Origin: a virus | Virus record (IMG/VR): IMGVR_UViG_3300031920_000339 | Coordinates: 1 to 32,420 of that record | Direction: 5' to 3' (one strand) | DNA length: 32,420 bases | Shown: in pieces, positions 10,801 through 32,292 of the stretch | How the letters are laid out: each line of letters opens with the position of its first letter | How positions within the stretch are numbered: the stretch's first letter is position 1 | Notes under the pieces: model-generated | The model's input: only the letters and a program-made list of their open reading frames with translations | Databases searched by the model: none | Told to the model about the DNA's origin: nothing | Translations under genes and position numbers: made by a program

Positions 10801-13382
10801 CCTACAGCACTTGCATTCCTTACTGCTGCTTCAGCGGTATCGTCAAGATATTTCTTTAATGACACTGACAACTCTGACAACTTGTCTTCAGCCATATCTG
10901 TATGTTTCCCTAATGCACCTGCTATATCCTCTAATGTAGAGCCTGCCGAGACACCATATTCAACTACCTCCCCTGCTAATATTTTTAAAGCCTGTGCCTG
11001 TTGCATAGACATAGCTTCCATTTCCTGTGTTGCCTCTACTCCTTCTACAACTTTGCCTATCACAAAATCAACTGCGGCTCCTATTGATCCGTAATATGAT
11101 TTAATCGCCTTTGAAACAAAACCAATAGCTCCTTTAAGACCAAAAAGCTTAGTAGCAAGTGGAGCGATTTTCTTAAGAACTCCATCTACAGCAATTTCAT
11201 AAAGACCCGTTGCTAATTTGGCTCTATCTATTTTGTTCCCATATTCATCATACAGATTGATTAAGCTTGCTATTTTTTCATCATGTTTGTTCTTTATTAA
11301 TTTGTCGAGCGCTTTTCCTTCATCAGCAAAACTCATTGTTGCGAGGTCAACACTACTGCGTAATTTAGGGTAATCATTTAGAAGTCTTCCCATCACTGAA
11401 GAATATTCTAATGACCCCTTCTCTGCTTCGGCAAGCTTGCTTCTGTATGATTCAAGAGTCTGAACTTGCTTATTGACACTAATTATATTTGCTTCTATAA
11501 CATTTGTTGCATTTGCTATCTTTGCAACCCATGTAGAAATGGCCACAATAACAAGAGACACTCCTATCAGAATAGCGGTATAAGGATTTTTAAGCATCTG
11601 TAGCCACAATTTATTAAAAGCCTTACTAAGAGCTACTATTGCTACCCTCAGAATGCCTGCTCCTTTAGCGGCAACCATTGCCTTAACAGACATGGCTGAG
11701 TAGCCAAAAATAACCGCAGCTAACTCAATCACTATTTTAGAAAAAGCAACCTTTAAAAGTATCATAGCAGTGGTTAGCGCTGTGGTACCTATAATAATTT
11801 TACCAATAGTACTACCTGCCATCTCTGTCAACAAATCTACCACTGGTCTTGTAACTTTATAAAAAATTCTAAATACACCTGTAAGACCAGACTCTCCTAT
11901 AGTGATCGCCAACAACCCAATTTTGTCCATCAGGTTCTTGGACATGACCCCAAGCCCCTCCATCTGCTTAGAAGCCATTTTATGAGCAGTCCCAACATTA
12001 TAAACTTCAGTCAGCATTTTTTGAAAGCCTTCTGCTCCAGCTTCTGTTAAAGCAGATACAGCGGCAGCCCCTCTTAAACCGAACAATTCAAATGCAGCCT
12101 GTGCATCTGGGACAACTCTTGTTAACTCCCCTATAATTGTTTTAAATGAAGCTGTTTTTGGATTTAACTTTGACATGTCTGCGCCGACGGCAGCAAAAGA
12201 AGATCTTAACTTGTTGGTTGGACTGATAAGTCTTGATAAAACTTGTCTAAGACCAGTTCCTATTGTACTTGCTCGCATACCTCTATTGGCAAGGAGCATG
12301 GCTCCAGCAGCAGTTTCCTCTAATGATAAGCCTGCATTGTGTGCAATTGGCGCAATGTAGTTAAATGCTGTGTTTAACTTATTTACTGTCAATTTTGATT
12401 TGTTTACTGCACTTGCAAATATATCAACAATTCGACTCGAATCAGAAGCATTAATACCAAATGCTCTAACTGCGGTTGTAACAAGATCGGCAGCAGTTGT
12501 CATGTCAGACAACGTCCCTGTAGCGAGCAGCGAAACCGCTCCAACTGCATCAATTGACTCTTCTGCTGTAAATCCTGCCTGCCCTAATATAACAGCGGCA
12601 TCAGCTACCTCTTTAGTTGAATATTTGGTTTCACTTGCAACCCTCCTAATTGTTTCCCCTAAAACAATTATTTCTGAATCAGTGGCTCCAGTGATAGCCT
12701 GCAAATTCTTTAATGCCTGGTCAAAGTCAAAAATAACATCTATAGCACTCCCAATTGCTCTTATAACGCCATAAATAGCAGCACTTGCCATACCGTATGC
12801 CATAGTTGATTTCATAGCGCCAGCGAGCGACTTAAGAGCGCTGGTGGTCTCTATTGTTTTCTTACCAACTTCTTTTATTTCTTTCCCTGCTGTTTTTGCG
12901 CTTTTCCCGGCTTTGGTTAAATCTCTTCCATAAAAAGAGGTTTTCTTAGCAGACTTTTCAGCAGCGAAACCGCTTTCCTCGAAACCCTTCTTTGTTATTT
13001 TCATTTCCCCTGACACAATTTTCTGCGTTTTAGATAATCTGTCAGAGTCCTTTATAAAAGTTTTATAATCACCTCCTGCGTCTTTGATTGCGGCAGACTG
13101 CCTAACCAGAGAACCTTCCACCTGCTTTAATGTAGAGGTGTATTTTTTATGAGCAACTGATCCTTTTTCAAAACTTTTATCTATCCATTGTTGTGCTTTG
13201 TTAAAATTTGCTAACTCCTTACTCGCTTTACTTGTTTGGCTTTGAAGAGCAGACATCCCATTGTTGAATGTGGCGAACCTTCTATTGAGCTTAGAAATTT
13301 TACTTTCAAGGCCACTAATAGACTTAGCAAATTCATCTACCTTCCCATAAAAACGAATTCCAAGTTTTATTTCTTTGCCCAT
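7812..13382 (-). CDS. Tail tape measure protein
   Basis: 1856 residues, by far the longest gene. Residues about 215-410 match the conserved tape measure core (ATGATDSEI, TKEVADAAVILGQAGFTAEE, DMTTAADLVTTAVRAFGI, IAPIAHNAGLSLEETA, MRASTIGTGLRQVLSRLI). Two hydrophobic segments lie near residues 530 and 607, followed by long charged helical coiled-coil stretches (about 860-1340). The motif GGHVPGSGSGDTVPAMLEPG occurs twice, near residues 1380 and 1730, inside a duplicated block. The protein sets tail length and may help form a channel at DNA entry. At about 0.15 nm per residue it predicts a tail near 280 nm, if not processed. The start overlaps the chaperone stop as TAATG. Confidence 0.95.
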   Translation of the reverse strand: MGKEIKLGIRFYGKVDEFAKSISGLESKISKLNRRFATFNNGMSALQSQTSKASKELANFNKAQQWIDKSFEKGSVAHKKYTSTLKQVEGSLVRQSAAIKDAGGDYKTFIKDSDRLSKTQKIVSGEMKITKKGFEESGFAAEKSAKKTSFYGRDLTKAGKSAKTAGKEIKEVGKKTIETTSALKSLAGAMKSTMAYGMASAAIYGVIRAIGSAIDVIFDFDQALKNLQAITGATDSEIIVLGETIRRVASETKYSTKEVADAAVILGQAGFTAEESIDAVGAVSLLATGTLSDMTTAADLVTTAVRAFGINASDSSRIVDIFASAVNKSKLTVNKLNTAFNYIAPIAHNAGLSLEETAAGAMLLANRGMRASTIGTGLRQVLSRLISPTNKLRSSFAAVGADMSKLNPKTASFKTIIGELTRVVPDAQAAFELFGLRGAAAVSALTEAGAEGFQKMLTEVYNVGTAHKMASKQMEGLGVMSKNLMDKIGLLAITIGESGLTGVFRIFYKVTRPVVDLLTEMAGSTIGKIIIGTTALTTAMILLKVAFSKIVIELAAVIFGYSAMSVKAMVAAKGAGILRVAIVALSKAFNKLWLQMLKNPYTAILIGVSLVIVAISTWVAKIANATNVIEANIISVNKQVQTLESYRSKLAEAEKGSLEYSSVMGRLLNDYPKLRSSVDLATMSFADEGKALDKLIKNKHDEKIASLINLYDEYGNKIDRAKLATGLYEIAVDGVLKKIAPLATKLFGLKGAIGFVSKAIKSYYGSIGAAVDFVIGKVVEGVEATQEMEAMSMQQAQALKILAGEVVEYGVSAGSTLEDIAGALGKHTDMAEDKLSELSVSLKKYLDDTAEAAVRNASAVGKLNGIWAEIYQKVDDSRKEGIIKEYKAFQEKEALYLKDAAKHSGSLESKNQAEEQYKVNSEARFKAVLEGIIRREEISIDITRDTNERKLELLDGYIEQEVEKYDIAQVKFHEAKNKELNSFIGTEEQKLELINRFSIEEEALHKNSLQKLISLEENKIVVLRDKNYEKLKNTGEYYKLVAELAQRGHDNILGMLDTRLKRELIRISSFAMSEQQRTRVLFKTKQQYYKDVSAESNRHFNELTKIVNETYDGILTKITTSGESADKKEKEIFEAKKKRNDEIKKLYDERSAAYKKTIDSLISEEERLTGAIRDAQEERADITKTGDDLIRELNQKLMTDLEVWNEEKLRADELLAKSNTELQAGNIEKAGEYAKEARGIYQGLAKEVKDESGNTIMSVAETVKVAVAGVANSTSALQAIFSSKIGVFEEELGSVRTRIKETESAFNSFKEKIASFNKDSKLRLDVTPTLKALDRADKAVKAYIKTLKDIPKTIETAIIKTTVERTVQARQGGGEIIKMAFGGHVPGSGSGDTVPAMLEPGEFVQPKATVKKYGKGLFEALRSRTIPKEKIQSLIPGMQTGGMVSVNAGVPVKMATGGTVPSDSSNGTIVVGHSMSDYSSVIDNLISEEKRLADETSKIQSQSTQETLNHYNFVFSQIAKKITMTKQEHHNGVELLKTKRDFELNLLGEVHSKEAELSKDGIRIHAEYRQKMAELDATYHHANIKTTEETYDNIVTVASNSYSSINNIINGSYDYISDVAKGTTSDVETWEKQAHDDRIARIRQETAATQYMYEAIATAAQKSTAKIVDAVASIPFIVRTKVEINESEIISDINNIIRKLASIPKNIKTTHTTVEKTVQAKQGGGEIMKMAFGGHVPGSGSGDTVPAMLEPGEFVQPKSVVKKYGLNFFEALRSKLIPKEKIQSLIPGLKMGGFVGGLPKASVAPQRMQSGGEVQSKGELYTINFNLNNKSHQLYGKEDAINGLVKNLRRSQLVTV
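8023..8249 (-). repeat. Tape measure internal repeat, distal copy
   Basis: About 227 bp highly similar to 9076-9302, offset 1053 bp (351 codons, in frame). It encodes VQAKQGGGEIMKMAFGGHVP, then the DTVPAMLEPGEFVQPK segment, then KEKIQSLIPGLKMGG. Long runs of DNA identity, for example around 8023-8055, show a real duplication. Confidence 0.85.
9076..9302 (-). repeat. Tape measure internal repeat, proximal copy
   Basis: Partner of 8023-8249. It encodes VQARQGGGEIIKMAFGGHVP, the same DTVPAMLEPGEFVQPK core and KEKIQSLIPGMQTGG. Just after it comes DNLISEEKRLADETSKI, which resembles DSLISEEERLTGAI ahead of it, so the duplicated unit may be about 351 residues long with a more diverged helical part. 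Confidence 0.85.
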
Positions 13383-14159: not shown

Positions 14160-14744
14160 CTAATCCCAAAGAATCGTTCCCAATGGTTTTGAATCCCAAA
14201 TTGCATTTCCTCCTGAGACATCAGAATTAGCCGCCTGTGATTCAAAAACAAGAGTAACTGCTGCTGCATCTTCACTGGCAAAACCAAGCTCTGGAGTTGC
14301 GGACACCTGTGCCCTTGGAAAAATGATGTTCATGTGATTCGTGCCATTTGTGTAAGTATAAATAGCTTCCATTCTAACATAAGCAGGAGCCGTTCTGCCG
14401 CCAAGGGCAATCTCACCAGAATGAGTTGTGTATGTCCCATCATCAGGATCAAGCCCCTGTGCTAAAGCCATATTAGCAGGAGTTACCTCTTTAAAAGCAC
14501 ACTCCAATTGAGCAGCCTCTCTTGTAGGGGTAACATAATCAGTGATAAGAGGGAACCCAGACTCTAATTTAAACCAGTCTGTAGGGCCTCTAAAAGTTGT
14601 TGACGCAACAGCGCCAATTGAGTCGGCGCTTGTAAGAATCGCCTCGCCACTACCGATATTGTCCGCAGAATTACCAACCCTTATCTGTGCGAAACCGAGC
14701 ACGATCGAATCGGCATTAATTGTTATTGGTCCACTTCTTGCCAT
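14160..14744 (-). CDS. Major tail tube protein
   Basis: 194 residues with a strong AGGAGG site before the ATG at 14744. The order of features matches phage tail tubes: an N-terminal DSIVLGFAQIRVGNSADN strand, DWFKLESGFPLITDYVTPTR, and a C-terminal IIFPRAQVSATPELGFASED followed by AAVTLVFESQA, the beta strands that form the tube wall. Gly, Ala, Thr and Ser are abundant, with no Cys besides one. It lies directly before the chaperone pair, as expected. With no sheath gene nearby this supports a siphovirus tail. Confidence 0.8.
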   Translation of the reverse strand: MARSGPITINADSIVLGFAQIRVGNSADNIGSGEAILTSADSIGAVASTTFRGPTDWFKLESGFPLITDYVTPTREAAQLECAFKEVTPANMALAQGLDPDDGTYTTHSGEIALGGRTAPAYVRMEAIYTYTNGTNHMNIIFPRAQVSATPELGFASEDAAAVTLVFESQAANSDVSGGNAIWDSKPLGTILWD

Positions 14745-14807: not shown

Positions 14808-15044
14808 TTATTCAGTCCCATCAAAAAATGGGATAAAGGGCAGAACAGTCCAATGCCCACATCTTTTTCTAAAACACTTTATTTTTACTTCCCCTTTGAT
14901 ATGGATGTCAACAGGAGAAGTCTTGTTCTTATCACCGTCTTTACTTTTACCAAAAACAAAATGCCATGAACCATCACTGGCTCTTTCAATTAATCTTCCA
15001 TGACACTTTTCACAATACACAAATTGCTTCTTGTCATGGATCAT
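14808..15044 (-). CDS. Com-like small zinc-finger protein
   Basis: The start chosen is the ATG at 15044, which overlaps the previous stop as TAATG and has an AAAGATA stretch behind a GGGGGG run. A start at 15074 would add 10 residues. The 78-residue product has C11-x2-C14 (YCEKCHGRLIE) and C57-x4-C62 (IKIKC-type KIKCFRKRCGHW), the layout of Com-type zinc fingers, which in phage Mu bind mRNA and switch on translation of mom. No Mom-like gene is visible here, so the target is unknown. Its place between tail terminator and tube is unusual for a regulator. A structural or RNA-binding zinc ribbon is the safe reading. Confidence 0.6.
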   Translation of the reverse strand: MIHDKKQFVYCEKCHGRLIERASDGSWHFVFGKSKDGDKNKTSPVDIHIKGEVKIKCFRKRCGHWTVLPFIPFFDGTE

Positions 15045-15517
15045 TATATCTTTGCCCCCCATCTTAAAATACATGTTATTTGTTTGACTTTAGTTAAATC
15101 GTCTAATTCCATTTGGCCCCCTTCGATTATACGTTGGACAACAAAACCACCAGACAAAACACCCCATTCTGCAACAGGAGAGCTTTCTCTAAGAGGGATC
15201 CTTGCCATACTGTCTGTTTGCCCGTAGTCAACAAGATAATTAAAAACAATATCTCTTAATTCGGCTAACCTAAAATATTCAGGATCCCTTCTTGTAAAAA
15301 GAAATAAATCAAGAGACAAAGAAGACAATGAGTCCATTTCTATATTTCCAAATCTGACACCCACCCATCTATCTACAGAGGTGCCTTGTAAAGAAGGAGA
15401 ACTAAGGGTCTTGTCAAAAGACAACTGTACTCCATCTTCTGTGTACAAGCCATCAATAAAATACCTCTTTATCGAATCCATTATATTACTTAGGCTTATA
15501 GTAGGGTCAATTGCCAT
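15044..15517 (-). CDS. Tail terminator/tail completion-type protein
   Basis: 157 residues. The ATG at 15517 lies inside the end of the previous gene, so translation is coupled. The pattern (ISLSNIMDSIKRYFIDGLYT, VDRWVGVRFGNIEMDSLSSL, SLDLFLFTRRDPEYFRLAELRD, IVFNYLVDYG) fits proteins that cap the tail tube: a helix, a beta strand carrying WV.VRFG, a strand of LFLFTRRD type and another helix. Position just before the zinc-finger protein and tail tube supports this. I do not recognise a named family with certainty. Confidence 0.55.
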   Translation of the reverse strand: MAIDPTISLSNIMDSIKRYFIDGLYTEDGVQLSFDKTLSSPSLQGTSVDRWVGVRFGNIEMDSLSSLSLDLFLFTRRDPEYFRLAELRDIVFNYLVDYGQTDSMARIPLRESSPVAEWGVLSGGFVVQRIIEGGQMELDDLTKVKQITCILRWGAKI

Positions 15518-15713: not shown

Positions 15714-16168
15714 AAATCCGATATTCTATTTAGCATATTATTAGCACGTTTTTGTATTAATTCTCCGTCTATGTATTCATATGCAGTTGGCTCAAATAAA
15801 GGTCTTCTTGACTCTTCCTTTGTCGCATATACAGAACTCCTGGCAATTTCACTTATTCCTGCGCCCCACCCCTCTTGGCATCTAAAAGACTCAACCTCAT
15901 TAAAAAGTTGTCCGGAAAGCCTCCAAGGAGCAGGATACCCTTTTTTACCATGTTTTTTCTTCCATGATGCATAATCTTTATTATATGGGGGAATTGGTGT
16001 TTTTCTTGTTAATATATTTTTCAACAATAATTGACGATAATCTATACTAAGAATTTCATTAAAAGCGCCTCCATTGTCTATGAGTTGCCTTCTTACTTCT
16101 TTTTCTATTTTTTTTAAAGAAGAAAGAACGTGTTTAATATCTTGTTCGTCAAATTGTATTTTTAGCAT
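15704..16168 (-). CDS. Tail completion/virion morphogenesis protein
   Basis: The start chosen is the ATG at 16168, inside the end of the previous gene (coupled translation). A longer frame to 16303 would overlap that gene deeply and lacks a ribosome site. The 154-residue product has an N-terminal helix (IKHVLSSLKKIEKEVRRQLI), the region TRKTPIPPYNKDYASWKKKHG with PAPWRLSGQLFNEVESF, and a SSVYATKEESRR segment. The Y..WKKKHG...L.SG.L pattern is that of phage tail completion or HK97 gp10-type neck proteins. It resumes the structural genes right after the glycan cassette. Confidence 0.65.
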   Translation of the reverse strand: MLKIQFDEQDIKHVLSSLKKIEKEVRRQLIDNGGAFNEILSIDYRQLLLKNILTRKTPIPPYNKDYASWKKKHGKKGYPAPWRLSGQLFNEVESFRCQEGWGAGISEIARSSVYATKEESRRPLFEPTAYEYIDGELIQKRANNMLNRISDLWL

Positions 16169-16571
16169 TTGGCAAAACCCATCCATCGAGTAGGCGCTCA
16201 AACACACAATCACTTGCATTGTGTGGCAAAAAAGAATCTGCTCCAAGCAAAACAGTGTTGTGAAATATTCTTGGTGCTTGTGAAATCCTTTCGTCCCCAA
16301 CAAGTCCTTCTTTCTTCATTAAAACCAAACTATCAAACACTTTTTGTTTTAAAAAAATAGGAAGAGCATCTCTTACTGCTGGGTCGATAATTTCATCAGA
16401 AAAAATATATCCGTACCATTCGGTATCCACACCCCATTCACGTATGCTGTTAGATAGAGCCCGATGGTTCAAAATATAAGAATGGGATACAATATCCCCA
16501 AAAGAGTCTATTGCATCATTGGGTCTATGGTTTCCCAAATTATCGCATGTCAAAACATACAAAGTAAGCAT
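16149..16571 (-). CDS. Glycosyltransferase-like protein of the cassette (uncertain)
   Basis: 140 residues with AGGAGG before the ATG at 16571. It has a short N-terminal strand (LTLYVLTCDNLGNHRP), then a region NDAIDSFGDIVSHSYILNHR, YGYIFSDEIIDPAVRDALPI and ERISQAPRIFHNTVLLGADS. This resembles the shortened GT-A-like proteins found beside phage sugar-transferase genes, with SDE as a possible metal-binding site. The protein is short for an active glycosyltransferase and I do not recognise a family with certainty. It is the last gene of the cassette and overlaps the next structural gene by 20 bases, so it is translated with it. Confidence 0.4.
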   Translation of the reverse strand: MLTLYVLTCDNLGNHRPNDAIDSFGDIVSHSYILNHRALSNSIREWGVDTEWYGYIFSDEIIDPAVRDALPIFLKQKVFDSLVLMKKEGLVGDERISQAPRIFHNTVLLGADSFLPHNASDCVFERLLDGWVLPNAKNTI

Positions 16572-16572
16572 T

Positions 16573-17190
16573 TTACTTTCCTCCTCTTTTTAGAGTAAAA
16601 AAGCCATGTGCCTTGCCACTATACGGACCTTTTATTCCAGGGACACTATATGATGTTTTTTTAACATCCCACCCGGTGCTTAAAAACATTTGCTTCCACC
16701 ATTTTAAAGGCTCACATGTGACATGTGTAATATCTAAATTATTATAATCGGCATAGTATTCCCCGTTTTCCCCAAGAGGAATGACGGCAAACATATTATC
16801 AGCATGAATACCCTCTAAAACAGGTAGCAATTGTGGCCATTCTACATGTTCAAGAACATCCTTAGCAAGGCACCAATCAAAATTTATATCAAGCATCTCT
16901 GGCAACAATGTACAATATTCTGCAATTTCTGGGTCGGCATTGGAAATAGCATATTCACTTATGTCTGCCCCCCATGCTTTAATTCCAAATTGTCTAAAGG
17001 CTTTGACGACATATCCGAATGCGCAACCATAATCTAATATTGTATCTTGTTTTTCAATGCCTAAATAATTAATCATTGACGACACCATCAATTTTGTCAA
17101 TGATGGCAACCACCGATAATTATGATATCCGCTTTTTCCTGTATTCAGCCCGTTTTGATAATAATTCTCATCATAAATACTACCGTTCAT
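16573..17190 (-). CDS. SAM-dependent methyltransferase of the cassette
   Basis: The start chosen is the ATG at 17190, with AGGAGG seven bases upstream. The frame extends to 17262, but that overlaps the promoter. The 205-residue product has the class I methyltransferase core: ILDYGCAFG (residues 51-59, the SAM-binding loop), GADISEYAI with acidic D76, and AKDVLEHVEWPQLLPVL. It belongs to the Methyltransf_11/23 type, common in polysaccharide and capsule loci. The substrate is unknown and may be a sugar made by the neighbouring glycosyltransferases. It is the first gene behind a strong internal promoter, so it may be expressed apart from the rest. Confidence 0.8.
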   Translation of the reverse strand: MNGSIYDENYYQNGLNTGKSGYHNYRWLPSLTKLMVSSMINYLGIEKQDTILDYGCAFGYVVKAFRQFGIKAWGADISEYAISNADPEIAEYCTLLPEMLDINFDWCLAKDVLEHVEWPQLLPVLEGIHADNMFAVIPLGENGEYYADYNNLDITHVTCEPLKWWKQMFLSTGWDVKKTSYSVPGIKGPYSGKAHGFFTLKRGGK

Positions 17191-17298: not shown

Positions 17299-17877
17299 TT
17301 ATTTTATCGCTTCCATAAACAATGAAAATTGAACCCTGTTGTCTAAATCTGAAAGTCCTTTCAAAACCGAGTTCTTAAAAGGGCATCGATAAAAAACTTT
17401 AAACCCTGAAACATACAACAATGAAGATAAACATTCCTTAGAAATCAACTGTACATGTTCATTGAAAAACAACGCCATTTCCAAAAAAGACTTACCGTCG
17501 GATGAATTTTTTTCACCCCAATTTACGACATTCCCGTTATCTTCACATACTTGAAGATTAAGCATTAATTCAGGATCAGGAACCGATACACGAAGCACGC
17601 CTTTTTTTCTTAAAACTCGTCTGCACTCCTTTATTAATTTTAGAGCATTATGAATATCCATATGCTCTAAAATATGAGAACAAAGGACCCCATCTATTTC
17701 GTTGTCGTTAAAGGGAAGGCCTTTGTTCAAGTCGTGATCTAAATAATTCGGCTCTTTATCCATATTAATTCTTTCCGGACATTCTGGATTAGGAAAGATA
17801 GAATGTAAATCATCAATATTTATCCATAACGGCATCTGTGGTCTGTTTGACCCACACCCTAAATTTAAAAATTTCAT
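17299..17877 (-). CDS. SAM-dependent methyltransferase (Methyltransf_11 type)
   Basis: 192 residues. The ATG at 17877 overlaps the previous stop as ATGA. FLNLGCGSN at residues 3-11 is the SAM-binding loop, followed by VLCSHILEHMDIHNALKLI and ECRRVLRKKGVLRVSVPDPE, a standard class I core. This subtype is common in lipopolysaccharide and capsule gene clusters, where it may methylate a sugar or act beside glycosyltransferases. It lies between the sulfotransferase-like protein and the promoter-driven methyltransferase. The two methyltransferases are not closely alike. The substrate is unknown. Confidence 0.8.
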   Translation of the reverse strand: MKFLNLGCGSNRPQMPLWINIDDLHSIFPNPECPERINMDKEPNYLDHDLNKGLPFNDNEIDGVLCSHILEHMDIHNALKLIKECRRVLRKKGVLRVSVPDPELMLNLQVCEDNGNVVNWGEKNSSDGKSFLEMALFFNEHVQLISKECLSSLLYVSGFKVFYRCPFKNSVLKGLSDLDNRVQFSLFMEAIK

Positions 17878-18551
17878 TTTATCACCGATTTAATTAACTT
17901 TTCATATAATTTGTTTGATTTGGGATGGCTTTTCTTGAATTCAAATTTTTCTTTTCTGCTAATATTGTAAATTCTCGAACGATCGTATACAGCGGTTGCA
18001 ACTGGTTTTATTTTCAAGGAGCTTAAAATCTTATTGATTCCTTTAGGCCATGACGAATGGCAATCGACAACATACGCCCCATCGTTGATCAATTCGTCGG
18101 CAGCAGATTCTATAGACAACCACGATTTTAATATCCTTTCATCTGGCCATTCCTTACTATGTGATCTTGTTCTCAACGTCTTGATTATGCCGAGAGGATG
18201 CTGTATTCCAACGATATATTTAGCATTAGGCCATTGTTTTTTAAAAATATCTTTTATGATATCCCACGTTTGAAGACCGTGTGTAACTTTAACCCCATAA
18301 AAAGATTTTGGTTCTTTTTTATAACTAATCAAAACCTTTTCAATTGTATTAAGACTTTCTTGTTTGACTCCGTTATAGAGAATATCTGCCATTGTGTTGT
18401 TTAAAAGTCCGTGTTCGCAATTAGCATTACAAGAATCGTCCCAAAAAGTATTTTTATTGCCCACAAACATTCCACCTTCTTTAAGTGTTTTGGAAACAAG
18501 ACTTGAAGCGGCATGCCAATGCGAAAGAATTACTATTTGTGTTTCTTTCAT
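17874..18551 (-). CDS. Sulfotransferase-like P-loop protein
   Basis: 225 residues with GGAGGGAGG before the ATG at 18551. The layout is that of sulfotransferases: an N-terminal strand and loop (IVILSHWHAASSLVSKTLKE with GGMFVGNKN) equivalent to the PAPS-binding loop, then AKYIVGIQHPLGIIKTLRTR equivalent to the 3'-phosphate-binding strand and helix, and later DGAYVVDCHSSWPKGINKIL. The usual G-R-S-G-T loop is replaced by SHWHAASS, so activity is not assured. If active, it would move a sulfate to a sugar or a protein. It overlaps the methyltransferase by 4 bases. Confidence 0.6.
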   Translation of the reverse strand: MKETQIVILSHWHAASSLVSKTLKEGGMFVGNKNTFWDDSCNANCEHGLLNNTMADILYNGVKQESLNTIEKVLISYKKEPKSFYGVKVTHGLQTWDIIKDIFKKQWPNAKYIVGIQHPLGIIKTLRTRSHSKEWPDERILKSWLSIESAADELINDGAYVVDCHSSWPKGINKILSSLKIKPVATAVYDRSRIYNISRKEKFEFKKSHPKSNKLYEKLIKSVIK

Positions 18552-18560
18552 CCTCCCTCC

Positions 18561-19553
18561 TTAAACAAACTCCTTGTGAATAAGGTCATGAGAAACCTTA
18601 TTTGGCCGAATGCCATTCTTTTTCCATGTGTCAAGCATGTTGACGTTATCTGTGAATACACAGCCGTTGCAATCTTTTCTAATATTGAAACCCATGTTTA
18701 TTTTTCCATCAAGAAAATCCAAAACTTCATTGGCATTGCATATCTTATATTTGTCGTCAAAGAACTCAACATTATTGTTTAAGACCAGCGAATCACATGG
18801 GTAAACTGTTCCTCCGTCGACCTCGCTTAAATAGGGCCTAAAATAAGCCTGATGACAATATTTAGGATTAGGGGTTCCATGAAATTTATATTGATGAAAA
18901 AAAACATCACTACCTACTTCATCAAGGATGTCGTCTATTTTATTATGCTGTTTTATCAAATCTTCTTGACTCAAAAGACAGTTAGGCAATACTCTTACGT
19001 ACTCTAAGCCTATTTTCTTTGCAAAACTCTCTACTTGGTAAAACTTATCTATATCTTGTCCAGTATAAATAAAAGATCCACCAGTAACACCATTCTTTAA
19101 TCTTGGGATAAATATTCTCTTATCCCAACCGTCAAAAGTATTAATACTGACCCGAGCCCATGAAAATAAATCCCATACGTCATTATCAACCTTATTTGAG
19201 TTTGTCCCGTTCGTGATAAGTGCTGTTTTAAGGCCCTTATCAGCTACCCAGCGAACTAACTCATTAAAACGAGGGTATAGAGTAGGCTCTCCACCTCCAG
19301 TCAGGATAACGGCCTTTAAGCCCCTGCCAATTAAATCCCTAACATACTTCTTAGCAACATCAATTTCAATTCTAAAATTTCTTTTTCTTTTTTTTACAGA
19401 ACAGAAAGAACAATTAAGGTTGCATGTACCTTCTGGAGAAATGTGAGTAGATATTATCGAATTTTTATGATTGATCAAATACTTATTCATTTGATCATGT
19501 TCCCAAAACTTTGCGCCGGTGCTTGTAAAATTATTCTCTTTTATACTCTTCAT
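18561..19553 (-). CDS. Radical SAM enzyme with SPASM-like C-terminus
   Basis: 330 residues with GGAGGG before the ATG at 19553. C44-x3-C48-x2-C51 (GTCNLNCSFCSV) binds the 4Fe-4S cluster of radical SAM enzymes, and GGGEPTL at 86-92 is the usual second SAM-binding motif, followed by LKTALITNGTN. The C-terminus has further Cys (YCHQAYF, TVYPCDSL, KICNAN, KDCNGCVF) in a SPASM- or twitch-like spacing that may hold auxiliary clusters. Such enzymes modify peptides, sugars or cofactors by radical chemistry. In this cassette a sugar or a virion peptide is the likely target. The substrate is unknown. Confidence 0.85.
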   Translation of the reverse strand: MKSIKENNFTSTGAKFWEHDQMNKYLINHKNSIISTHISPEGTCNLNCSFCSVKKRKRNFRIEIDVAKKYVRDLIGRGLKAVILTGGGEPTLYPRFNELVRWVADKGLKTALITNGTNSNKVDNDVWDLFSWARVSINTFDGWDKRIFIPRLKNGVTGGSFIYTGQDIDKFYQVESFAKKIGLEYVRVLPNCLLSQEDLIKQHNKIDDILDEVGSDVFFHQYKFHGTPNPKYCHQAYFRPYLSEVDGGTVYPCDSLVLNNNVEFFDDKYKICNANEVLDFLDGKINMGFNIRKDCNGCVFTDNVNMLDTWKKNGIRPNKVSHDLIHKEFV

Positions 19554-19554
19554 T

Positions 19555-20244
19555 TTATAAACCCTCCTTCAAATACTTTTCAAAATAAGAAGCTTCCTTG
19601 TGGTGTTTTGGATAGGTGTCTCCGAACTCACTGTCTATACTATGAAGATAAGAACATACCTTCCCGACATCATCTCTTTTATCTTGAGGCGTAGAGCTAT
19701 GAAAATGGTTAATGATAGGATTATTTAGATTACAATATATACCCCTGTGACCACTTAACTGTTCATGCAATTTCCTTACATATCTAAGATCGCTATCTAA
19801 TCTTGTCATTCTTGCCTGATAATCAGGATAAACATTGTAGTCTTTTTTAGACTTTGTCATTGCTGTATCGTACCAGTCTATTCTTGGGAAAGCGACAACA
19901 TCGAAATTATTGGATAGTTCTTCGCCGATATGACGCAAGTGGTGAACACATCTCCCTAAAATTCGCTCGTCTGCATCAAAAAAAACATTCCATTTTGATT
20001 CAGGGAAAAACTTTCTTGCCATTTCTCTTAAATGGTTCCTTGCATTCCCATATCCCTCCTTGGTAATGATATCTGAGTGAACGACCATCACATCATTGTC
20101 TTCAAGTATCTGTTGGGAATGGTCCGTAGACGTACCAAGAACAACTATTATTTGATTGGTAACGCCTCTCATGTTGTCTATCCATCCATTCAACTGAGCC
20201 TCTTCATTCTTCATGTTCGAAGTTATAACTATCTCTCTTGTCAT
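19555..20244 (-). CDS. Glycosyltransferase family 2 (WaaE-like)
   Basis: 229 residues with GGAG before the ATG at 20244. REIVITSNMKNEEAQLNGWI is the usual GT2 start. NVFFDADERI (D90-A-D92) is the metal-binding DxD, and YPDYQARMTRLDSDLRYVRK with LHEQL is the acceptor-side pattern of the WaaE/KdtX group. WaaE-type enzymes add glucose or a related sugar to an inner lipopolysaccharide core. The C-terminal HKEASYFEKYLKEGL is a normal helix. It ends one base before the radical SAM start. Role: adds one sugar to a glycan whose identity is not known. Confidence 0.8.
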   Translation of the reverse strand: MTREIVITSNMKNEEAQLNGWIDNMRGVTNQIIVVLGTSTDHSQQILEDNDVMVVHSDIITKEGYGNARNHLREMARKFFPESKWNVFFDADERILGRCVHHLRHIGEELSNNFDVVAFPRIDWYDTAMTKSKKDYNVYPDYQARMTRLDSDLRYVRKLHEQLSGHRGIYCNLNNPIINHFHSSTPQDKRDDVGKVCSYLHSIDSEFGDTYPKHHKEASYFEKYLKEGL

Positions 20245-20252
20245 TTTTTCTC

Positions 20253-22295
20253 CTATTTAGAAATTCTCTCTATCATTATTGGCCTGGGCCCCCTTGCTGC
20301 ATCTTTTATATCCCTAACGATTTCATATGGGTCATGAGAACCAGTACATTTAAGATCGCAGTCCTTAACAGAACCGCTACATGGCCCAAGACATGCCATC
20401 TTTACATAATTTGGAATACGGCTAATAAGAATTCCCTTGGTTTGATTTGGCCTTACCACTCGGTAATTACCACATCCAAACAAGCATACTTGATTCAGCC
20501 CAATTGCACCTGCTAAATGGGCCAGATATGAATCAATTGTGACTGCAACTTCTGCCCGTCTCATTATATATGCGGTCTCTGCATATGTCGTTTTCCCTCT
20601 TAAATCAACGCTTGCAAAAGCGTTGATATCATTTTTTGAACCAAGTTGAATTGTAAGGTATTCCTCCTTTATCTCTCTACAAACATCACTCATGAATTTG
20701 TATGTTCTGAACTCTTTATCTCCACCTGATGTTTGAACTATGCATATCGGTTTTTTAGAAGCCTTTCTCCAGCCAGACACAGGCGTTTCAGCAATATAAA
20801 AATCATCTGGAACAAGATTAAGTATCTTCCAATAAAAATCGCTAAGAATTGAATTAGAATTTCTCCCCCATGATCCTTGAAGAATTTTATCCTTATGAAT
20901 ATCAAGGACAAATTTATAATCCTTCTTGATATCCTCATTGTATGGCAAAACATTGTCTATATATGGATTGCCTTCGAGAACTCCGGCATATTGAGGAAGA
21001 GTCATATAGTCTATAGGCAATTTGTATCTGTCTTTGAGCCCCTTAAAACACCTTGTTGTCATTAACACATCGCCAGCGGCACTATGTTGAGCAAACAACA
21101 AGCGATTCTTTTTCTTTATCTTCTTTTGAACGCTTTTGACTAAAATAGAATTTATATCCGAGACAGTACTGACCCAATTACGTCCTCTCTCAATGCCATT
21201 CTTTGTCATTTTATTTTGTAATTTTTTGTCAGAAGAGACTTTTATAATAGCGTCTTTAATATCATCAGAGCGACTTGTGTAAGAAGTCACATGGGAAGTT
21301 CCACCGATAGTTGGAACAGGAATGTATATTTTCTCTTTAGTCTTTACAAGCTCTCCAACGCCTTCAATTAGCTCTGTTTGAGACGTTGTCTCCGACCCTA
21401 TAACAGGTATCCCACAAAGCATTGCTTGCAGCACAGTCCAACTCAGGCCCTCCTGAGCAGAACAATTGACAAGACAGTCTAATGAATTATAAACATCTAC
21501 CATTTCCTCTTCTGAATAGACGGCACCTTGTTTTTTGGTTATTATATCGCCAGTCTTGGCGCCAAGATCAACGGCCATTTGCTTTAAGTTGTACACACCG
21601 TCTTCAAATTCAGAATGAATGTACAAAGAAATATCGTCATTGTCTTTCTTTGCAAGAAAATAAGCCTCCATTAGATTAGGGATACATTTTCTTATTTGGT
21701 TCTTTGCAATACAACCAATTACAAACTTAGATGAAAAATCAGCTCCAAAATACCTTGCCCTCGTTGTTTTCTTTTTGTCAAGAGAATAAGGCTTATATAA
21801 AGCCGAACTCCTAAGAGATGGCTTAAAATACTTTAATTTTGGAACATATGGTTTTAACTCATCGTATCCAAACCGACTATACACACAAGGAACATCTACA
21901 CAATTTATCCAATCTATCCAATCTTTTCTTATTTTGTATAAATCCCATGGAAAGATTGACACCCAACAAAAAGGCTTGTTATTTTTAATCGCCATTATAT
22001 TATTGAGTACAGGAGAGTATCTCCAGATATCAAGGCCTACCATAACCAAATAGTCTACTTCAAACGACTGAATTGTCTGCAAAAAAATACCGAGTCCCTC
22101 TTTGCTATAAGGATTCGATATGGTTTCCATTTTAATTTCTCTGTCAAAAAACGGATCTGCAACACCTATTTTATTTACTAAGCACGAAACATCATATTTT
22201 TCATTGTCTACCTGCGTTAACATTCCATAAAGCATATTCCCATTGCCTGTTCCAGACATGGGATTGTCACCAACAAAAAGAACCTTTTCTCTCAT
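20253..22295 (-). CDS. Fused glycosyltransferase: GT4-like + GT9-like
   Basis: The start chosen is the ATG at 22295, which overlaps the previous stop as ATGA and has AAAGGA upstream. This gives 680 residues. Residues about 1-375 are a GT-B GT4-like domain (VLFVGDNPMSGTGNGNMLYG, KFVIGCIAKNQIRKCIPNLM, YSEEEMVDVYNSLDCLVNCS, EGLSWTVLQAMLCGIPVIGS). The usual E-x7-E motif is E-x7-Q here. Residues about 395-680 are GT9-like (RLLFAQHSAAGDVLMTTRCF, ICIVQTSGGDKEF, TIDSYLAHLAGAIG), with a C-terminal Cys cluster CLGPCSGSVKDCDLKC. GT9 enzymes move heptose. Fusion of the two halves suggests two successive sugar additions. It opens the cassette, coupled to the head-closure gene. Confidence 0.85.
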   Translation of the reverse strand: MREKVLFVGDNPMSGTGNGNMLYGMLTQVDNEKYDVSCLVNKIGVADPFFDREIKMETISNPYSKEGLGIFLQTIQSFEVDYLVMVGLDIWRYSPVLNNIMAIKNNKPFCWVSIFPWDLYKIRKDWIDWINCVDVPCVYSRFGYDELKPYVPKLKYFKPSLRSSALYKPYSLDKKKTTRARYFGADFSSKFVIGCIAKNQIRKCIPNLMEAYFLAKKDNDDISLYIHSEFEDGVYNLKQMAVDLGAKTGDIITKKQGAVYSEEEMVDVYNSLDCLVNCSAQEGLSWTVLQAMLCGIPVIGSETTSQTELIEGVGELVKTKEKIYIPVPTIGGTSHVTSYTSRSDDIKDAIIKVSSDKKLQNKMTKNGIERGRNWVSTVSDINSILVKSVQKKIKKKNRLLFAQHSAAGDVLMTTRCFKGLKDRYKLPIDYMTLPQYAGVLEGNPYIDNVLPYNEDIKKDYKFVLDIHKDKILQGSWGRNSNSILSDFYWKILNLVPDDFYIAETPVSGWRKASKKPICIVQTSGGDKEFRTYKFMSDVCREIKEEYLTIQLGSKNDINAFASVDLRGKTTYAETAYIMRRAEVAVTIDSYLAHLAGAIGLNQVCLFGCGNYRVVRPNQTKGILISRIPNYVKMACLGPCSGSVKDCDLKCTGSHDPYEIVRDIKDAARGPRPIMIERISK

Positions 22296-22906
22296 CTTGT
22301 ATCCTTTGAGAGTCTGCAAACGTCAACCCCTATATACCGATATCTATTTACAACCTCTACTTTATAGTATTCCCCGCTATAAGGAGAATATCTGTCATTT
22401 ATTTTTGCACCAACATAAGAGGGCAAAAATAATTCATTATCTTCCAATTGCGTTAAGGAAGACACGTCATCAACCATCTTGTTTCTGAATTCTGGATTAA
22501 TAAATAGAGAATGGCAATTCTCTCTTACTGTACCCCAGGCTAATTCCTTACGATATGTAAATGTATTCCATACTTCTCCTGAAGAACGAGTTAATTCTCC
22601 AGAGGTATTACAAAAATACAAAATGCCTTGTTTTGTTATTGTTGCACTCTCAAACGACTCTGTATTTAAAGTTGTTATTAAATATTTATCTTGTGCATTT
22701 TCAAGAGCAAGAATATCTCCGGATACCGCCTGTGTGTCGTATGCAAAAAGAGATTTCTTAAAATAGGATATGATAAATGGCTTGGTTGCTTGCTCATTTA
22801 TTTCTAATATGCACGACTCCCCTGATATATTTCCTCCGTCACGCAAAATAACAACAGGAGAACCCATTTCAAAAAGAACACCTTTTATATCCTCGCCGAT
22901 TGACAT
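22292..22906 (-). CDS. Head closure/stopper-type protein
   Basis: 204 residues from the ATG at 22906 behind AGGACG. The sequence (MSIGEDIKGVLFEMGSPVVI, LRDGGNISGESCILEINEQA, TKPFIISYFKKSLFAYDTQ, VSGDILALENAQDKYLI) is a type found beside head-tail adaptors in AT-rich prophages. Position after the adaptor and before the tail genes, once the cassette is set aside, is that of the stopper that closes the portal after packaging. I cannot assign a named family. Its stop overlaps the first cassette gene as ATGA. Confidence 0.6.
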   Translation of the reverse strand: MSIGEDIKGVLFEMGSPVVILRDGGNISGESCILEINEQATKPFIISYFKKSLFAYDTQAVSGDILALENAQDKYLITTLNTESFESATITKQGILYFCNTSGELTRSSGEVWNTFTYRKELAWGTVRENCHSLFINPEFRNKMVDDVSSLTQLEDNELFLPSYVGAKINDRYSPYSGEYYKVEVVNRYRYIGVDVCRLSKDTR

Positions 22907-24429: not shown

Positions 24430-25656
24430 CTACGTTACCGTTAACTGGTATACTCCGTCTTCGTGATATAAAATCGGAAGTCCTTTATCTGAAACCCTAA
24501 TAAAGATTCCGTCCGGATCCTTCTTCTCCCACCTGTCTATCTGCTGCCCCCAAGTACGAGAAAGCATATGAGGGGCTTTCATAACCTCCGCAATAGGCTC
24601 ACCGTCGACACTATCCGCCCACATAACGAACTTATTGGTTGGGACAAACTTTCTTGTCATATAAACATAATCTTCAGTAGACTTATAAGAAGAAGACAAA
24701 GTCCCAGTAGCCGTTATGGTACCTGCATCAGAATCGATTGCTGTAATAGTAAGAGCCTCTTTAGTTCTTGCAGAGACATCATAAACAGTAAGAATCCCGC
24801 CAACCACAAAGTCGGTGGTCTCATCAACATACACAGTGTGAGGACCGGCCCCAGATGAAAGAGCGGTAGTAAGGTACGCTTTGATCTGATACGCCTCATC
24901 ATAAAGATGCATCTTTCCAATACCGATCAAAGAACCAATAACTGAAGTAGGGTTCTTAAAAAGGTCACCAGATCCAAAGCTTGATTTCTGAAGAAGCGTC
25001 TGGATGGTATCGTCAAAAATCATCATCTTAAGAACTTCAGTTGTGAAAATCGCATTATTGAGAACACCAGCATTAGCATTGCTTATTGCAAGCTTCGCAT
25101 CAAAAATATTCTCAACTATATTTCTTGATGTTCCGGTATCCCATTTATAATCAGCCGCCAATGTTACTCTGTTATCAGAGGGAATGGAATAGTCAATAGA
25201 AAGATACTTCTCGTTTTTATCTTTGTAAGTAAATCCATTATTACAAAGCATCTGAGCAATCATCCACTCTTCTCTACGAAAAGAACGATTAGCCAAATTA
25301 CGTGTCTGAACAGCAAGCGTTCTTGCCGCCTTCATATACTTTCTATCTGTTCCTGGCTGCCTAATATTGTTAAGGAAAGAAGATCCAAAAAAAGTTCTTT
25401 CTTTCCAGTATGCCGCTGCCGCAGAGTTCTGCCCTGTGCCTGTTACTGACGCCTGAGGTGCCTCTGCATCCTCACCTGCAAAAGGGGTAAGCCCTCTGCT
25501 TCCTATCTGGGATTCCCATTCGATCTGGTCGGACTCATACTTGACACTGTTGAACATATTCTTAAGAATAAGGTTCGGTGGAGACGTATACTTTGTTACA
25601 AGCTTGTTCAGCACTGTTAGTCTAAGTGCTGGTATTTCATTGATTCCTATGGTCAC
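24430..25656 (-). CDS. Major capsid protein (lambda gpE type)
   Basis: The start chosen is the GTG at 25656, eight bases after AGGAGG. A GTG at 25665 lies too close to that site. The 408-residue product matches the Phage_cap_E style: an N-terminal TIGINEIPALRLTVLNKLVT, WESQIGSRGLTPFAGEDAEA, then a long middle with NLANRSFRREEWMIAQMLCN and a C-terminal MSRTWGQQIDRWEKKDPDGI with IRVSDKGLPILYHEDGVYQL. Length and position after a decoration-type protein and S49 protease agree with the lambda order C-Nu3-D-E. It forms the icosahedral shell. Confidence 0.85.
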   Translation of the reverse strand: MTIGINEIPALRLTVLNKLVTKYTSPPNLILKNMFNSVKYESDQIEWESQIGSRGLTPFAGEDAEAPQASVTGTGQNSAAAAYWKERTFFGSSFLNNIRQPGTDRKYMKAARTLAVQTRNLANRSFRREEWMIAQMLCNNGFTYKDKNEKYLSIDYSIPSDNRVTLAADYKWDTGTSRNIVENIFDAKLAISNANAGVLNNAIFTTEVLKMMIFDDTIQTLLQKSSFGSGDLFKNPTSVIGSLIGIGKMHLYDEAYQIKAYLTTALSSGAGPHTVYVDETTDFVVGGILTVYDVSARTKEALTITAIDSDAGTITATGTLSSSYKSTEDYVYMTRKFVPTNKFVMWADSVDGEPIAEVMKAPHMLSRTWGQQIDRWEKKDPDGIFIRVSDKGLPILYHEDGVYQLTVT

Positions 25657-25673
25657 TTCAATCACCTCCTCAA

Positions 25674-26384: not shown

Positions 26385-26876
26385 CTAAATCATTTCAAAA
26401 ATTTTGTCTGCACAAGCTGCATCAGCATCATCCAAAGACGAATTAGCACTTGTTTCCCCTTTAACCGTTGCTCCTGCACCATCTATAGATGGATTCAGAT
26501 CCAACCCCTCCCAATCGCTAATCTCTGTGTCAACTAACGCAGAGAACTTCTCTGTATCAACATTCTCCATAAACTTAGAACAATCGACAAGGGATGTAAC
26601 CTTCCCATAAAGCCTCTCTGGAATTCTGCTTAAACACAACTTAGAAGAGATTAACTCTTTTGCAATGCTCCTCCGATCTGCCTCTAATCTCATTGCTTCT
26701 CTCTTCTCATTCTCGTTCTGAAGTTTTGCAATAAGGCTGTTACTTTCTGCCAATTTAGTTTCAAAATCAGCAATTCTTTTTTCAAACGACATAGCATCCT
26801 TTTGTGATTCTGTAGAAAGTTCGTTTTTCATTGCCTCATAAAGTTCTTTGTCTGCCTTTAATTCTGAGAACGTCAT
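26385..26876 (-). CDS. Nested scaffold from internal start (Nu3-like)
   Basis: Inside the protease gene an ATG at 26876 is preceded by AAAGGGGGTGA, a 9 of 10 match to the ideal ribosome site, at a spacing of about seven bases. This start would give a 163-residue acidic coiled-coil protein (MTFSELKADKELYEAMKNEL, FEKRIADFETKLAESNSLIA, KLQNENEKREAMRLEADRRS), the usual form of a head scaffold. In lambda, Nu3 is made in the same way from an internal start of gene C. Separate production is inferred from the ribosome site. Confidence 0.6.
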   Translation of the reverse strand: MTFSELKADKELYEAMKNELSTESQKDAMSFEKRIADFETKLAESNSLIAKLQNENEKREAMRLEADRRSIAKELISSKLCLSRIPERLYGKVTSLVDCSKFMENVDTEKFSALVDTEISDWEGLDLNPSIDGAGATVKGETSANSSLDDADAACADKIFEMI

Positions 26877-27812
26877 TTCCTCTTCACCCCCTTTGGTTAT
26901 GCTCTTCTGAGCATTAATCTTAATGTAACTTGACTTAGCCTTCATGTTCGTATCTGGATTAGAAACAACAGATCCTGTGATTGCCGTTTCTAAAGTTCCT
27001 ACTTGGTCCATAAGGCCTGCATCGACAGCCTGCTGACCAATAAAAATTCTTCCATCCGCCATATCAGACACCACTGTTTCCGCTGAAACATTTCTGTTTC
27101 TTGCAACGGCGTCTACAAAAAGAGTATAGTAATAATCCAAACTACTTTGAATTATAGCTCTATCATCGTTAGACAAAGGCTTATCACTTCCTCCAACTGA
27201 CTTGTATTTACCAGAAGTAATTGTTGAAACAACAACACCGTCTTTTTCATTTTTCTTAGAATTGTCTATATGTTTTGTTATAACCCCTATTGACCCAACC
27301 TCAGCAGACTGGCTACCGCTAATACTGTCGGTAGCAGAACCAATGAGATATGCAGCAGAGGCCATTATCCCATTTGCAAAGGCCCGAATTGGTTTTATGC
27401 CTCTTGACGCATAAATAAAATCAGACAAATCAAATATCCCGTCAACAGAGCCACCAGGGCTTTCAATATCCATCAAAATAGAATCAATGGAATCGTCCTT
27501 TAATGCCTCCTCTATTTCCGTCTTAATTTCTTCAGTGCTAACTCCACCAGAAATATTAGAAAACATATTCATTCTTTTTGAAATAGTGCCATTAATAGGA
27601 ATTACCCTGACTCCTTCGTTAGTGTAGGAAGAAAGATTAATTTCTCCACCAGCTCCTATTTTAGCCGCTATTTCATCCAATGACAATTTACCATTCATCC
27701 TTGTTTCAACTATTTGATGAATAGTACTTAACATATCAGGTAGTATCGCCCATTGAGATGTTTGCAAATAACTATTTATAGAACTAAACTTATTATTCTT
27801 TGGAGTTGTCAT
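26385..27812 (-). CDS. Head maturation protease, S49 family, with scaffold domain
   Basis: 475 residues from the ATG at 27812. Residues about 65-290 are an S49 (SppA/lambda C) domain: RVIPINGTISKR, DSILMDIESPGGSVDG, AFANGIMASAAYLIGSATD with nucleophile Ser152, AEVGSIGVITKH, and TITSGKYKSVGG with the likely general base Lys202 or Lys204. After residue 310 comes a coiled coil (the nested scaffold) and an acidic Ala/Ser-rich tail. The protein cleaves scaffold and sometimes other head proteins after assembly. The start lies inside the end of the previous gene. Confidence 0.9.
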   Translation of the reverse strand: MTTPKNNKFSSINSYLQTSQWAILPDMLSTIHQIVETRMNGKLSLDEIAAKIGAGGEINLSSYTNEGVRVIPINGTISKRMNMFSNISGGVSTEEIKTEIEEALKDDSIDSILMDIESPGGSVDGIFDLSDFIYASRGIKPIRAFANGIMASAAYLIGSATDSISGSQSAEVGSIGVITKHIDNSKKNEKDGVVVSTITSGKYKSVGGSDKPLSNDDRAIIQSSLDYYYTLFVDAVARNRNVSAETVVSDMADGRIFIGQQAVDAGLMDQVGTLETAITGSVVSNPDTNMKAKSSYIKINAQKSITKGGEEEMTFSELKADKELYEAMKNELSTESQKDAMSFEKRIADFETKLAESNSLIAKLQNENEKREAMRLEADRRSIAKELISSKLCLSRIPERLYGKVTSLVDCSKFMENVDTEKFSALVDTEISDWEGLDLNPSIDGAGATVKGETSANSSLDDADAACADKIFEMI

Positions 27813-31691: not shown

Positions 31692-32292
31692 CGTTCCCCG
31701 CAAGTCTATCTGTATAATCAGTATTTGAACCGTCAAGAACTTCTATCACTTTCATAGCTCCTTCTCCCTTAAGCGCTATGCCTGATGATATCTCTCTGAC
31801 CTTGCCTTTGACCCTCTTTCTTAATAACCTATTGATATCGAGACTCTCAATGGCATTAAGAAGGCTTCTCTCTTCAGCGAACAAAGGGTTAACTTTTATA
31901 CCGTACTTGGTTTCTTTATAAACGTCCATTGAAAGAATTTCTTTTTGGACTCTTATTAAATTATGATGGAGGCGCATGTATTTAAACCCCAATTCAACCA
32001 AGTCATATTCATCAAGGTCTTTTTCTAAATATTTAAAAACCGGATTGAGAACATGTTCCATATAGTCGCCTTCTACCTTACACCCCTTTCCGTCATTTTT
32101 GTTTCCACACCTATCAAACAAACGACAACTTGGACTACATAAGGTGATCATATTCCATGCCAGCAATTTTAAGCCACTTATTAATTTGTCCTCTCTAAGA
32201 ACACTTGGAATATTGTTTGCTTTGGCTACTTCCTTTACATCTTTTACTCTCTTCGTTAATTTCCTCTTTACCTTCGTTTTGGATTTTGTCAT
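31681..32292 (-). CDS. Probable small terminase subunit
   Basis: The start chosen is the ATG at 32292 with AAAGGA upstream. The frame extends to 32367, but that would start at the promoter's -35 box. The 203-residue product has a very basic N-terminus (TKSKTKVKRKLTKRVKDVKE), a Cys group C52-x3-C56-x5-C62-x8-C71 that may bind a metal, and a helical C-terminal half with KYGIKVNPLFAEERSLLNAI, a pattern seen in small terminases. Position directly before the large subunit supports the call. It would recognise the packaging site. Confidence 0.65.
   Translation of the reverse strand: MTKSKTKVKRKLTKRVKDVKEVAKANNIPSVLREDKLISGLKLLAWNMITLCSPSCRLFDRCGNKNDGKGCKVEGDYMEHVLNPVFKYLEKDLDEYDLVELGFKYMRLHHNLIRVQKEILSMDVYKETKYGIKVNPLFAEERSLLNAIESLDINRLLRKRVKGKVREISSGIALKGEGAMKVIEVLDGSNTDYTDRLAGNDEE

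Follow-up and report, generated by a model that had tools for sequence, protein, structure and literature searches.

A radical SAM gene within a virion operon

The window, by which we mean the whole stretch of DNA analysed, is a 32,420-nt IMG/VR virus record in which the structural genes and an intervening cassette all run co-directionally on the minus strand from terminase to tape measure (Table 1). The gene under study (P0001) encodes a radical SAM enzyme, here called rSAM. Its reading frame opens with an ATG at 19553 and closes with a stop at 18561, a Shine-Dalgarno sequence, AAGGAGG, lies ~10 nt 5' of the ATG, and the plus strand is broken by stops across the same coordinates; the ORF is a genuine gene. 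PHROG matches for terminase, protease, head, tube and tape measure genes, all in one direction, bear out an earlier note on this DNA, which had placed the gene in a phage structural operon.

Table 1. Features of the window from the tail genes to the terminase gene
Feature	Coordinates	Strand	Basis or remarks
Tape measure	7812-13382	-	PHROGs
Tail tube	14160-14744	-	PHROGs
Tail-side flank of slot	15044-15517	-	50% in 6/7 sister contigs
140-aa protein, no known family	16149-16571	-	Tail-side cassette edge; kept in same-slot relatives
MT2, class-I SAM methyltransferase, conserved partner	16573-17190	-	phrog_27380, E=3.7e-33; linkage to rSAM
MT1, second class-I methyltransferase	17299-17877	-	PF08241, E=4e-11
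Sulfotransferase-fold protein	17874-18551	-	Homology and predicted fold
rSAM, Twitch-class radical SAM enzyme	18561-19553	-	330 aa; PF04055; HTVC008M relative
GT2 glycosyltransferase	19555-20244	-	PF13704 and PF00535 above cut-off
Fused GT4 + GT9 (heptosyltransferase-like), 688 aa	20253-22319	-	PF00534, PF01075; ATG 22295 likelier start
Head-side flank of slot	22292-22906	-	38-52% in sister contigs
Major head protein	24430-25665	-	PHROGs
Head protease, S49-type	26385-27812	-	PHROGs
Terminase	29832-31736	-	PHROGs

The cassette is tightly packed. The GT2 gene lies 1 nt upstream of rSAM and the sulfotransferase-like gene 9 nt downstream, and spacing throughout is 1-36 nt or an overlap, except for ~108 nt before MT2 when its likelier start is used; ATG 17190 is preferred over TTG 17262 because homologues begin there and AGGAGG precedes it. 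Promoter-like sites in the window occur at chance level and terminator-like sites little above it. The co-directional, tight placement suggests that the cassette would be expressed with the capsid and tail genes.

Both neighbours of rSAM agree with their earlier description. The GT2 gene passes two Pfam families (Table 1), and its homologues (46-57%) stand near rSAM or GT4/GT9 genes in loci L114, L115, L117, L118 and L130, which share the same genomic slot. The sulfotransferase-like protein itself is not convincingly matched in Pfam, NCBIfam or PHROGs; the assignment holds because its homologue in L110 passes PF13469 (Sulfotransfer_3) and its AlphaFold2 model is nearest to sulfotransferases (best Z 11.7 to 3rnl over 190 residues, with adenylate kinases close at 11.0). 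Its PAPS loop reads HAASSL, versus RTGSTL in homologues, which makes its activity doubtful, and the protein is possibly inactive or repurposed. At the tail-side edge, the 140-aa protein is conserved beside the methyltransferase in at least 12 relatives. There is no sugar-nucleotide synthesis gene in the window, so a sugar donor would have to come from the host or from the unsequenced rest of the phage.

A Twitch-class enzyme outside the known families

Pfam Radical_SAM (PF04055) matches rSAM with E=6.3e-14 and 52.9 bits against a curated cut-off of 29.5, and the complete CX3CX2C and GGGEP motifs that had been reported earlier are both present, as C44-x3-C48-x2-C51 and T85-GGGEP; with its GGE-type motif the protein belongs to the radical SAM superfamily. 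The C-terminus carries C233-x14-G248-x4-C253 and C295-x2-C298. A SPASM motif has seven cysteines in the order CX9-15GX4C-gap-CX2CX5CX3C-gap-C and two auxiliary clusters; Twitch is a shortened form of it with a single cluster (PMC6231123, PMC9012708). The second SPASM half is absent from rSAM: CX5CX3C and the last cysteine are missing, and there is no PF13186 match to an E of 0.1. Judged by its motifs, the C-terminus is Twitch, a half-version of SPASM with one predicted auxiliary-cluster site of four cysteines. The earlier label of SPASM-like is accordingly refined to Twitch.

The three radical SAM and four Twitch cysteines are invariant across 48 diverse aligned relatives, as are W132, R134, R187 and F329; some relatives have a longer first Twitch spacing, and none of the 48 has the full CX2CX5CX3C of SPASM. 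The protein ends in HKEFV. The penultimate Phe is found in every row, preceded three residues earlier by His (38/48) or Met (9/48), so that an H/M-x-x-F-x end is common to 47; at least two of three cyanobacterial relatives (L189, L191, L192) end in HVNFI or HINFI. An AlphaFold2 model (pLDDT 75, pTM 0.81) aligns best with DesII (Z 18.6, rmsd 4.1, 304 residues, 12% identity), followed by SkfB (17.1), SuiB (16.4), MoaA (16.4), PqqE (16.2), BlsE (16.1) and BtrN (13.1, 214 residues). As the differences in Z are small, we did not use this ranking to assign chemistry, and the predicted fold match is one at superfamily level.

Membership of a housekeeping family, the outcome that the earlier note had set against its own reading, finds no support. 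rSAM widely misses the cut-offs for MoaA (34.5 bits versus 284, TIGR02666), QueE (30.5 versus 260, TIGR03963) and an NrdG-type activase (37.3 versus 131, TIGR02495), and approaches no NCBIfam equivalog cut-off. Viperin is its top match in NCBIfam and PADLOC, at 42.2 bits versus 180 (NF038283) and over residues 43-141 only; the match to pVip is likewise confined to the core, and the Twitch cysteines also exclude viperin.

A conserved methyltransferase partner

The window rSAM protein alone found no match in a scan of viral contigs. When it was aligned with its HTVC008M counterpart and this two-member alignment served as query, viral contigs yielded 41 relatives, 47-55% identical to the window rSAM, and the SynMITS9220M01 protein as query added 40 further loci. 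Among isolates the best match is AGE60492 of Pelagibacter phage HTVC008M (48% over 99%), the second that of Synechococcus phage SynMITS9220M01 (23%). With this identity to the 41 relatives, a supported common clade and MT2 three genes downstream, the window enzyme is of pelagimyophage type. Genome contigs gave two weak matches, limited to the core, and plasmids partial matches only.

Clustering of the ORFs brings out the same methyltransferase family directly after rSAM, while the other neighbours change. In the window this partner is MT2, third downstream of rSAM after two intervening genes. The methyltransferase lies at most three genes downstream of rSAM in 76 of the 78 viral loci in which two or more downstream ORFs can be seen; only L005 and L107, both of podovirus type, depart from this. 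In the reciprocal direction, viral contigs were scanned with the methyltransferase alignment only and an rSAM was counted if it scored >100 bits within ~5 kb, which was so for 62 of 76 methyltransferase loci. The two genes are immediately adjacent in 42, compared with 11 expected for a random position in the locus and a maximum of 23 in 10,000 shuffles. Many of the counted loci are related to one another and not independent; once near-copies are removed, rSAM is near the methyltransferase in 43 of 56 loci and adjacent in 28. Searching phage records by the methyltransferase alone brings up the same isolate records first, and the pairing is maintained across rSAMs that are just ~23-27% identical. 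At the level of gene neighbourhood, rSAM has a specific partner, a predicted methyltransferase of the phrog_27380 type.

A second radical SAM type was seen directly before the partner methyltransferase in five same-slot phages (L114:4054-4986, L115:4202-5017, L120:1637-2461, L126:836-1645, L133:4216-5016). It has a Pfam SPASM match in the three tested (L114, L115, L133), and no other radical SAM was seen close to the methyltransferase in L120 and L126.

The wider surroundings of the relatives differ in detail and resemble one another in kind. AGE60492 shares with the window enzyme its cysteine set, its C-terminus, the adjacent methyltransferase family and nearby glycosyltransferases; it differs in having ~110 more N-terminal residues and ribonucleotide-reductase neighbours, and is annotated as hypothetical. 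Such long pelagimyophage versions (L002:11689-13059 and others) have no Pfam match in the ~110 extra N-terminal residues, which the window copy lacks. In HTVC008M the context comprises carbamoyltransferase, NAD-synthase-like, UDP-Glc/GDP-Man dehydrogenase, 2OG-oxygenase and glycosyltransferase genes, and here and in its relatives ribonucleotide-reductase and primase genes are found next to the pair, which stands outside the virion operon. SynMITS9220M01 carries it among heptose-synthesis genes and glycosyltransferases, again outside the virion operon. Podovirus ctQWt234 (MW202801) places glycosyltransferases, a methyltransferase, PhyH and a NodB-like protein with its rSAM, between the major capsid and phage stabilization genes. 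Three cyanobacterial relatives (~107-116 bits) adjoin NTP-transferase, TPP-enzyme, NDP-sugar epimerase, methyltransferase and aminotransferase genes, and a GDP-fucose-synthase-like epimerase is among the partners of relatives elsewhere. In Campylobacter phage F379 (L007:4171-11237), five annotated radical SAM genes cluster with an amidinotransferase, and a nucleotidyl-sugar transferase comes after them; this is probably a further glycan cassette of a phage.

A variable slot and the exchange of its genes

Sixteen contigs whose major head protein is 73-78% identical to that of the window, here called sisters, keep the window gene order, where long enough, up to the head-side flank. Beyond it, most of the sisters reaching that far carry the fused GT4/GT9 gene (38-43%) and then differing gene sets, with GT2, GT4, DegT aminotransferase, GNAT acetyltransferase, pyruvyl-transferase-like and B12-binding radical SAM genes. 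The tail-side flank comes next in six of the seven sisters tested (homologue of 15044-15517 at 50%, tail tube at 61-63%). The GT4/GT9 fusion opens the cassette as its constant gene, and the rest is hypervariable. In one sister slot the B12-binding radical SAM protein (L051:17572-18660) adjoins the pyruvyl-transferase-like gene. ORFs that by eye resemble HNH endonucleases were seen within the slot or next to it (L051:15080-15793, L065:16868-17536, L057:12619-13365); such endonucleases are a possible route of cassette exchange.

No rSAM relative was found in seven sister contigs at E<=1e-3, the contigs being partial and the scan run without a positive control; the same query does find itself in a separate search. 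With none in seven of these partial contigs, the idea that rSAM is a fixed core gene of the phage group was rejected. Phages reached through the methyltransferase have the tail module in common and hold divergent members of the rSAM family (29-33%) in the same slot. The cassette of L130 is near-minimal, GT4/GT9-GT2-rSAM-methyltransferase, and L115 has the same order plus one further rSAM. In L125 and L128 the rSAM-methyltransferase pair follows the portal gene, which implies that virion operons acquired the module at more than one position.

The rSAM tree places the window enzyme beside L155 (98*), within the pelagimyophage-type clade (98*) and apart from the rSAMs of the same-slot siphophages; in the methyltransferase tree, the window MT2 falls in a starred set with same-slot siphophages (98*). 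Both trees come from a quick method, and resolution is weak in that of the methyltransferase. The different placement of the two window proteins suggests that the rSAM gene was swapped between phage lineages while the partner methyltransferase stayed.

A proposed sugar-tailoring cassette

Based on the enzyme class, the predicted Twitch site, the pair, the slot and the sugar-gene context, each established at the level of sequence, we propose that rSAM and MT2 act within a glycan-tailoring cassette, that rSAM abstracts hydrogen from a sugar and that the glycan is likelier to sit on a virion protein; taken as a whole, we regard this model as probable. The GT4/GT9 and GT2 proteins would build or attach the sugar. 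rSAM would take a hydrogen from one of its carbons, in a nucleotide-sugar or in the attached glycan, and would then oxidise, epimerise or deoxygenate it, much as BtrN, SpeY or DesII do. MT2 would subsequently decorate the product, probably with MT1 and the sulfotransferase-like protein.

Hydrogen abstraction from a sugar followed by methylation is favoured because the contexts are glycan-like and neither a precursor gene nor a leader-binding domain was found. Every context examined is of this kind, in pelagimyophages, cyanophages, the podovirus, same-slot siphophages and bacterial relatives. The earlier note had named two possible targets, a cassette sugar and a virion-protein peptide; the first is supported, as glycosyltransferases and sugar-nucleotide enzymes surround all these phage relatives, joined by the conserved methyltransferase in all but the podovirus. 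The case for a sugar substrate is strong. For the exact reaction we can offer a weaker suggestion. Oxidation is faintly favoured, solely because a four-cysteine Twitch cluster is known in the dehydrogenase BtrN, which ligates its auxiliary cluster through four cysteines (PMC9012708, PMC6231123). Like BtrN and SpeY, the Twitch dehydrogenases of aminocyclitol antibiotics, the window enzyme has one four-cysteine site in the arrangement CX9-15GX4C...CX2C; unlike them it shows no full-length sequence similarity, sits in a phage and is accompanied by no aminocyclitol pathway, so the likeness would be one of compatibility with a sugar dehydrogenase only. DesII, a radical SAM deaminase of TDP-4-amino-4,6-dideoxyglucose, acts on a nucleotide-sugar; it is the best structural match at 12% identity and is much longer, and the window holds no DesV-like aminotransferase.

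Where would the glycan reside? Embedding of the cassette in the virion operon makes the particle a likelier site than the host surface, an argument of weak to moderate force. Given a sugar, we lean roughly and modestly to the virion and take the host surface as a serious second. The same chemistry could act on host LPS or capsule and so block adsorption of competing phages or re-adsorption of progeny, a possibility that we rate as real and rather doubtful. It matches the view taken of the pelagimyophage hypervariable region, which holds radical SAM cassettes and whose many glycosyltransferases are read as modifying the host surface against coinfection (PMC7029224). Neither the HTVC008M nor the SynMITS9220M01 relative is part of a virion operon, the SynMITS9220M01 one being accompanied by heptose-synthesis genes, the GT9 half of the fusion is heptosyltransferase-like, and the bacterial relatives occur in polysaccharide-type gene clusters. 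However, a cassette inside the virion operon, as in the window and several relatives, would be odd for an early alteration of the host surface. Since the HTVC008M-type pair stands outside the virion operon, a virion role cannot be general.

Modification of a side chain or the backbone of a virion protein, as a RiPP-like cross-link, epimerisation or thioether, appears improbable. Position in the virion operon is compatible with it, and several profiles and folds point that way: SkfB, SuiB and PqqE are fold neighbours, YydG/EpeE comes first in a profile search using the close family of rSAM, and, counting against our sugar proposal, SuiB tops the sequence-profile list and the RiPP enzymes SkfB (17.1) and SuiB (16.4) follow close behind DesII. 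A RiPP maturase is nevertheless rejected, as rSAM has neither an adjacent precursor gene nor a leader-binding RRE domain. No RRE-type Pfam domain was detected in the window or HTVC008M proteins, no conserved small precursor-peptide gene near rSAM in the loci examined, and the intergenic gaps of the window cassette are too small to hold one. Only 43 residues precede the first cysteine, the window copy having no N-terminal extension, and the partners are sugar enzymes everywhere examined. The virion-peptide half of the earlier proposal is thus unsupported.

Phage glycosyltransferases can glycosylate DNA, and the HTVC008M pair lies near nucleotide-metabolism genes; that the glycosyltransferases and rSAM decorate phage DNA is still very improbable, as no base-hydroxymethylating or other DNA-modification enzyme was recognised in the window, the cassette lies in the virion operon and the bacterial relatives stand beside NDP-sugar genes.

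Relation to known systems and implications

Returning to the sugar-tailoring model, both of its ingredients, radical SAM genes in phage glyco-islands and glycosylation of phage virions, are already known. In mycobacteriophages Che8, Corndog and Myrna, phage glycosyltransferases modify capsid and tail-tube proteins, and as described in PMC12363180 and PMC12619734, which cite Freeman et al. 2023, this takes place without a radical SAM or methyltransferase partner; for the window cassette, glycosylation is a prediction from its genes. The cassette of ctQWt234 is similar in joining rSAM, glycosyltransferases and a methyltransferase at virion genes, and differs in an rSAM only 26% identical and in lacking the phrog_27380-type family. 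In the open-licence literature, which gives weak evidence on this point, we found no description of the conserved rSAM-methyltransferase module, of the Twitch signature that it carries, of its location within virion operons or of the apparent exchange of rSAM, and a conserved two-gene module inside virion operons appears to be undescribed. It may represent a novel type of virion modification, with several of the relatives placed elsewhere than in a virion operon.

Discussion of phage glycosylation has centred mainly on glycosyltransferases. The most likely role of rSAM is to tailor an unusual sugar of the virion or host surface, and not a peptide, because in many unrelated phages it is almost always found with one methyltransferase among sugar-handling genes. 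As part of glycan cassettes this pair recurs in siphophages, pelagimyophages and cyanophages, which would indicate that the surfaces of phages, or those that phages alter, bear uncommon sugars that are difficult to make, and GT4/GT9, GT2, radical SAM and methyltransferase form a small, testable gene set in which to search for the product. More speculatively, we suggest that a transferable rSAM-methyltransferase module may place a radically altered, methylated sugar on phage particles, with the rSAM half exchanged between unrelated phages. If this is true, the swapping of radical enzymes would be a means by which phages vary the glycans of their particles.
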